Shown: in pieces, positions 50,862 to 51,578 of the stretch
Position numbering within the stretch: position 1 is the stretch's first letter
Layout of the letters: each line of letters opens with the position of its first letter
Virus record (IMG/VR): IMGVR_UViG_3300040781_000267
Location: 1 to 56,932 of that record
DNA from: a virus
DNA: 56,932 nt
Strand: one strand, 5' to 3'
The notes under the pieces: generated by a model
Told to the model about the DNA's origin: nothing
The model's input: only the letters and a program-made list of their open reading frames with translations
The model's database searches: none
Program-made: the position numbers and the translations under genes

Positions 50862-51578
50862 TGATTATTCTGTTGCTAGGTGATCAACCCCGGATAACCT
50901 ACGCCGCTAGGGCAAGGTCTCCATAGAATGCATCATTTGCTGCATTTATTAAAGTTCTTCGCGTTTACGGCAGCTTAGATCGCCGATTCCTCGTTATTAC
51001 TTCTTAAGCTAGTCGATTCCATGAACCCTCCCATTAATAAGTACACTAGCATCAATGCACTTATTGGTGGAAGAGCCGGGATTCGAACCCGGGTCCTAGC
51101 CTTAATCCGTTTCAAACTCAGACGGAATTCTTTTTAGTAGTTATGCTCTCGCGGCATCACAGAAACTGTTGCAACAGTATGCATGTTATCTATTGTATTA
51201 CAATGGCTAATAGCAACCATAATTTTCGACGAACATACCGTCGAGAATAATTTATTGTCCTACGCCCTAGCGGTCAGTATGTGAACATGGGGCGATTGAG
51301 AGCATATCGCTTAGAATACATCCAAGGTCTACTGGTACCAACATGTAACAGGCACAGCACCTACAATAGTGCATGTATGTCAACAGCGGTGATACCTGGC
51401 GTACCACTCCAGATCGTTGTGCAATTTCGTGCATTTCGGATTTAGGATGCATTGGAACGGTTTCTGTTGACAAGCACCGTTAGGCTCCGAAACAATCATA
51501 GCTTACGCTAGAGGACCACGACTCAATCTCATGGCGAAACGTGGACCTTCTCTAATTTTTATCACTTGAAACCCTTAT
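50862..51578 (-). ncRNA. candidate large structured RNA within the tRNA cluster
   Basis: About 700 bp with no credible gene but many stable hairpins: 50927-50946 (AATGCA/TGCATT), 51165-51178 (perfect palindrome), 51226-51244 (TCGACG/CGTCGA), 51389-51407 (GTGGTAC/GTATCAC, one G-U) and 51516-51544 (CCACG/CGTGG). A tRNA-like 3' end lies inside at 51066-51105. Large ornate phage RNAs such as GOLLD and ROOL occur next to or around tRNAs, so this may be one of that kind or a new type. The terminator at 50830-50860 sets the 3' limit. Confidence 0.5.
51065..51160 (-). tRNA. tRNA-like 3' half, isotype unassigned
   Basis: T-arm CCGGG-TTCGAAT-CCCGG, acceptor CTCTTCC, A and encoded CCA are perfect. The matching 5' strand GGAAGAG is absent upstream and no standard D-arm is seen; TCCGT/ACGGA brackets an 11-base loop. 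GGGAGGG at about 51028-51034, after the CCA, could pair with the acceptor through two G-U pairs. Either decayed, embedded in the larger RNA or split. Confidence 0.4.

Follow-up and report, generated by a model that had tools for sequence, protein, structure and literature searches.

tmRNA rescues stuck ribosomes and adds a tag to the incomplete proteins on them. For its two-piece form, the sequence of processing, alanylation, SmpB binding, tagging, and proteolysis is established at the level of the family (PMC11915505; also Keiler et al. 2000, as cited in PMC9004378). The corresponding Rfam family, RF04321, is a merger of the alpha (RF01849), beta (RF01850), and cyano (RF01851) families (PMC11915505). 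Two-piece tmRNAs make up 53 of the 133 unique phage tmRNA structures found in 18,146 genomes, 50 of these 53 coming from marine or aquatic sampling, and two-piece ssrA is found in marine phages such as Melnitz and Pelagibacter phage Mosig (PMC9004378). The tmRNA database contains 79 phage sequences (PMC11915505), and a survey from 2014 listed mycobacteriophages and Bacillus phage G only (PMC4131195).

The window, that is, the whole stretch of viral DNA analyzed here, is a phage fragment of 56.9 kb from IMG/VR. The phage is contractile-tailed, with a tail sheath and RIIA (PHROGs), and almost all genes lie on the minus strand. The longest gap in the window by codon score (50761–52146) contains the interval 50862–51578, which a sequence-only reading had described as a large, ornate noncoding RNA candidate of about 700 bp within a tRNA cluster. 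That the interval holds no credible protein gene was borne out, as codon scores are around zero or negative for all of its ORFs and clearly positive for the adjoining genes; protein coding in 51158–51578 is thereby ruled out. The tRNA cluster is loosely right: the surroundings contain tRNA-Leu (49142), tRNA-Gly (54418), a tRNA-Ser with unusual arms (52084–52171), and two degenerate-looking tRNA-like pieces. A structured noncoding RNA is indeed present, but it is a known RNA of approximately 350 nt, a permuted tmRNA (RF04321), and not a new class.

The RF04321 model (tmRNA_permuted) matches positions 50899–51128 over its full length (1–213) with 72.6 bits (E = 4.6e-12), against a curated cut-off of 47 bits, and ARAGORN predicts a permuted tmRNA with the tag AANDAFYGDLALAA on the minus strand at 50808–51157. 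The only clade-specific Rfam model reported at the locus was beta_tmRNA (RF01850), which matched over its full length (50834–51174) with 58.6 bits and did not reach its cut-off of 84. We are confident of the identification as a permuted tmRNA, which is ordinary as a kind. The features of the locus are as follows:

50830–51178, minus strand: permuted tmRNA gene with its terminator; outer ends approximate (ARAGORN, beta_tmRNA, and RF04321 core ranges as given above)
51065–51135, minus strand: acceptor piece, on the 5′ side of the gene, with helix P2 strands AUUCC and AAG-G-CUAG, T-arm, and acceptor strand
51076–51092, minus strand: T-arm CCGGG-TTCGAAT-CCCGG, from the sequence
51065–51075, minus strand: 3′ acceptor strand CTCTTCC-A-CCA with encoded CCA (CTCTTCCACCA), from the sequence
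51033–51064, minus strand: intervening sequence, probably excised in maturation, as in the family
50899–51032, minus strand: coding piece with 5′ acceptor strand GGGAGGG, D-loop-like ATGGAATCGAC, P2 partner strands, and tag frame
50899–50943, minus strand: tag reading frame GCAGCAAATGATGCATTCTATGGAGACCTTGCCCTAGCGGCGTAG, encoding AANDAFYGDLALAA and a stop, from ARAGORN and the sequence
50833–50860, minus strand: intrinsic terminator AAAGGGCTGCC-taac-GGTGGCCCTTTTT, from the sequence and its fold
51179–51578, minus strand: noncoding stretch upstream of and outside the tmRNA gene, with structure at chance level, no Rfam match, and no homologue found

Read on the minus strand, the gene has the circularly permuted order of a CCA-bearing half, an intervening sequence, and a tag-coding half. 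The acceptor is of the alanine type: GGGAGGG and CTCTTCC pair at seven of seven positions and include G3–U70, the alanine identity pair, and ACCA is encoded. The tag frame begins with an alanine resume codon and ends with a hydrophobic ALAA-type degron and a stop. The tRNA-like 3′ end that had been noticed inside the interval was thus correctly seen, consisting of the T-arm and CTCTTCCACCA. A 13-bp hairpin of 30 nt (AATAAGTGCATTG / TAGTGTACTTATT, 51036–51065), formed by the intervening sequence and the last bases of the CCA tail, stacks on the acceptor stem, and the hairpin parts of the pseudoknots (PK1 before the tag, and others) are present in folds computed without pseudoknots. The minus-strand terminator is real and strong, but it lies just outside the interval, whose start is at 50862. 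An exact match to 28 nt of it in Erwinia phage Y3 has protein genes on either side and is probably terminator-like by coincidence.

Folding separates the gene from the stretch upstream of it. The fold of 50830–51178 has a z-score of −4.52, with none of 100 dinucleotide shuffles folding as well, compared with −0.20 for 51158–51578, where 39 of 100 shuffles did. Sliding windows agree, as z-scores of −2 or lower occur only within 50831–51130 and once at 51431–51550 (z = −2.1, unremarkable among 16 windows). Hence, the impression of an ornate RNA is valid for half of the interval only. In our view, the minus strand of 50830–51178 almost certainly carries a permuted (two-piece) tmRNA gene, presumably serving ribosome rescue of the family type, and the adjoining stretch of about 400 nt is most likely spacer or a decayed tRNA region.

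The alternative that survives best concerns this upstream stretch, which might be a separate small functional RNA or a regulatory leader specific to the phage. About 400 nt stay noncoding in a compact genome, and the single window at 51431–51550 could be taken as a sign of structure. However, there is no overall excess of structure, and promoter-like sites are no commoner than in shuffles. No Rfam model matched the stretch at E ≤ 5 (scan of 49000–54600), and no homologue was found among 50,697 phage records at an E-value of 10, the best matches (best 20 of 664 records) all lying beyond the interval, at the 3′ end of a tRNA-like piece. A search of one isolate and ten related contigs likewise yielded no homologue. 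We therefore consider a separate RNA or leader unlikely. A role as leader of the tmRNA itself was rejected on the basis of relatives. RF04321 matches above the cut-off occur in 4 of 25 contigs related via sheath or glutaredoxin, one of them on a 607-kb contig, and in all four the tmRNA gene lacks a 400-nt leader, its start lying only about 70 nt ahead of the T-arm. The contig with the closest sheath (G001, 63% identity) was of no help for synteny, as its 69 kb span structural genes and not the tmRNA region. Spacer or decayed tRNA-region DNA is the most economical view of 51179–51578.

Permuted tmRNAs scoring 79 to 137 bits with RF04321 were found in isolated phages of Stenotrophomonas (Menderavirus, DLP_6), Xanthomonas (XacN1, Rb1), Pseudomonas aeruginosa (SM1), Acinetobacter (BUCT628), and Tunturiibacter, and also in Pelagibacter, Synechococcus, and Alcaligenes phages. 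Most of these isolate loci carry no tmRNA annotation, and some are partly annotated as hypothetical proteins. In Tunturiibacter phage Tunturi_4 (L374), the permuted tmRNA has a tag of more than 30 residues and lies directly downstream of a release-factor-like gene with an RF-1 domain, the two possibly forming a ribosome-rescue pair.

Compared with these genes, the score of the window gene is modest, which marks it as a divergent copy. The low score, together with the degenerate look of the adjoining tRNA-like pieces (51580–51733 and 51740–51819), could also indicate a decaying, host-derived remnant that has lost its function. Such decay is difficult to reconcile with the retention of the acceptor stem, T-arm, CCA, P2, an intact tag frame ending in ALAA, and the terminator, and with a tag type that is common to many viral tmRNAs and occurs in no cellular genome by pattern scan; we regard a remnant as improbable, somewhat more so than a separate upstream RNA. 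The original proposal of a single structured RNA of about 700 nt, GOLLD- or ROOL-like or of a new class, drew on the noncoding nature of the whole stretch and the tRNA genes around it, and it can be dismissed with near certainty because the permissive Rfam scan gave no match to GOLLD, ROOL, HEARO, or any other large phage RNA, 51158–51578 folds like its shuffles, no homologue was found in the phages and related contigs searched, and tmRNA-bearing relatives lack the extra stretch.

If the permuted tmRNA works as others of its family do, host RNase P and 3′-processing enzymes would trim the transcript into two RNAs, which would be held together by pairing in helix P2 and the acceptor stem. Once charged by host AlaRS, the tmRNA would be brought by host SmpB to ribosomes stalled on broken mRNA. 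The ribosome would then shift to the tag frame, append AANDAFYGDLALAA, and terminate, so that the stuck ribosome is released, and the tagged fragment would pass to ClpXP-type proteases reading the final LAA. A likely benefit for the phage is a continued supply of ribosomes during the cleavage of host and phage mRNAs, with the phage supplying its own form of tmRNA and its own tag.

A degenerate pattern describing the tRNA-like domain in its permuted form matched at least 119 viral stretches; ARAGORN calls most of these permuted tmRNAs. Among 79 distinct candidates (the window and viral loci chosen by pattern among the matches listed), the acceptor pairs at seven of seven positions in 54, compared with a mean best of 5.0 after shuffling, and G3–U70 is kept in 55. 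Candidates that fail here may belong to other subtypes or may be false matches. A MAFFT alignment of 28 sequences has pairing in 100% of the T-stem cells, three of the five T-stem pairs showing double changes, and covariation in the proximal part of P2. This alignment places the acceptor strands of the relatives about one column off, and the covariation count for the whole structure is no better than that of a version slid by −1; the acceptor columns were therefore left unused, and the acceptor stem is judged from the direct pairing count in the 79 candidates. The tree of viral permuted tmRNAs leaves 41 of 80 forks open and puts the window gene on a long branch of unsure placement, nearest to L016. 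Given this poor resolution, we make no claim from the tree about single or multiple origins of the tag, nor about one phage lineage.

The tag body ANDAFYG[DE], searched as a DNA pattern, occurs in 68 viral contigs, and in 64 of these ARAGORN predicts a permuted tmRNA. Neither the same exact pattern nor a stricter one was found in 84,980 prokaryote species genomes, in a scan run without a positive control and blind to single-residue variants of the tag. As we estimate that about 0.06 chance hits would be expected for this 43-bit pattern, the zero count means that this exact tag is absent from these genomes. No mention of the tag string was found in the literature searched. The Stenotrophomonas, Xanthomonas, Pseudomonas, and Acinetobacter hosts of the isolated phages with permuted tmRNAs are believed to use one-piece tmRNA. 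This is the form found in bacteria outside the alpha, some gamma and beta, and cyano groups (PMC9004378). An SmpB gene was found neither in the window nor in 15 other phage records (16 in total, most with a permuted tmRNA), in a search that was positive in 10 of 14 control genomes, and host SmpB is presumed for this reason. These observations suggest a tmRNA lineage that is kept by phages and relies on host SmpB.

A broader interpretation, which we put forward tentatively and with more doubt than conviction, is that phages maintain their own two-piece tmRNA lineage or lineages independent of the form and tag of the host. ANDAFYG[DE] and the related [FY]YG[DE] recur in viral tmRNAs across deep branches and not in sampled cellular genomes, and permuted phage tmRNAs occur in phages of hosts believed to have the one-piece form and would rely on host SmpB; the phage tag might steer the products of trans-translation toward a fate that favors infection. 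If phages bring two-piece tmRNAs with a phage-only tag into one-piece hosts, ribosome rescue would be actively replaced; the tag might change what becomes of the proteins that carry it, or the RNA might evade host defense against tRNA or tmRNA. This wider pattern of tag and host mismatch, which is unfinished, carries more weight than the single locus, the contribution of which is to add one divergent phage-borne two-piece tmRNA and to clear away the mistaken trail of a new giant RNA.

The surroundings of the gene deserve description in their own right. The tRNA-Ser (GGA) at 52084–52171 (minus strand) was missed by both ARAGORN and Rfam; it has an 8-bp acceptor stem, a T-stem of about 4 bp, the T-loop ATCGAGA, and a long D-stem. 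Mukai and colleagues are said to have described, in 2017, 8/4 tRNAs for serine in bacteria and phages, a type that this tRNA matches. Unannotated homologues occur in DSS3_MAL1, RcXuper, X1, and DLP_6, and the T-arm pattern matched 72 stretches in viral contigs. In Bacteriophage DSS3_MAL1 (L002), four unannotated tRNA-Ser of the same unusual type (GGA, CGA, TGA, and GCT) lie amid canonical tRNAs at 16086–22182. The tRNA-Pro-like piece at 51580–51733 (minus strand) consists of canonical-looking halves, between which the variable region is longer by about 78 nt; its 3′ end is 88% identical to a phage tRNA-Pro, and it is either a degenerate tRNA or an unusual insertion. The piece at 51740–51819 (minus strand) has a good T-arm and an anticodon-like hairpin (CCG) and no recognizable D-arm. 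A further tRNA-like 87-mer at 43840–43926 (minus strand), for which no phage homologue was found, combines an 8-bp closing stem, an encoded CCA, and a CCT anticodon hairpin, again with no D-arm. Contig G001 carries a tRNA with anticodon CTA, called Pyl (L227, 9920–9995), which is possibly an amber suppressor.

Three neighboring protein genes also stand out. The minus-strand gene at 52509–54068 encodes a full-length 2-isopropylmalate synthase-like protein (HMGL-like and LeuA_dimer), for which one viral relative was found, distant, partial, and at a contig edge. The DUF4031 gene at 51856–52140 (minus strand) has a codon usage unlike the rest of the phage and was perhaps recently acquired. For the amidase gene adjoining the tmRNA region, no viral relative was found.

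Compared with GOLLD, ROOL, and HEARO, the likeness of the window RNA is one of setting only, namely phage DNA near tRNA genes; the window RNA is far shorter, has a defined and different function, and matches them in neither sequence nor structure, and stable structure over the whole length is not found here (z = −0.2 for 51158–51578). The permuted tmRNAs of Menderavirus, DLP_6, XacN1, Rb1, Samunavirus, and Obolenskvirus BUCT628 are closer counterparts, with RF04321 scores of 103 to 137 bits. Most of them pass the beta_tmRNA cut-off, whereas the window gene stays below it, and their tags, in phages of gammaproteobacterial hosts, are unlike that of the window. Melnitz and Mosig, like the phage of the window, are large contractile-tailed phages with a two-piece tmRNA, and no SmpB gene was found in Mosig either. 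Mosig fits the alpha model (67.6 bits) and has the tag GEDNFALAA, whereas the window gene fits beta_tmRNA better, and in contrast to ssrA of the Melnitz/Mosig type, Rfam shows no riboswitch adjoining the window tmRNA. With the RF04321 family as a whole, the window gene shares the gene order, the tRNA-like domain, the intervening sequence, and the tag frame, at a score above the cut-off, but it is divergent, phage-borne, and equipped with a tag body unseen in cellular genomes. Since phage two-piece tmRNAs are already in the literature, the window gene is not a new kind of RNA; it is one more of these published tmRNAs, in a divergent, phage-borne version.
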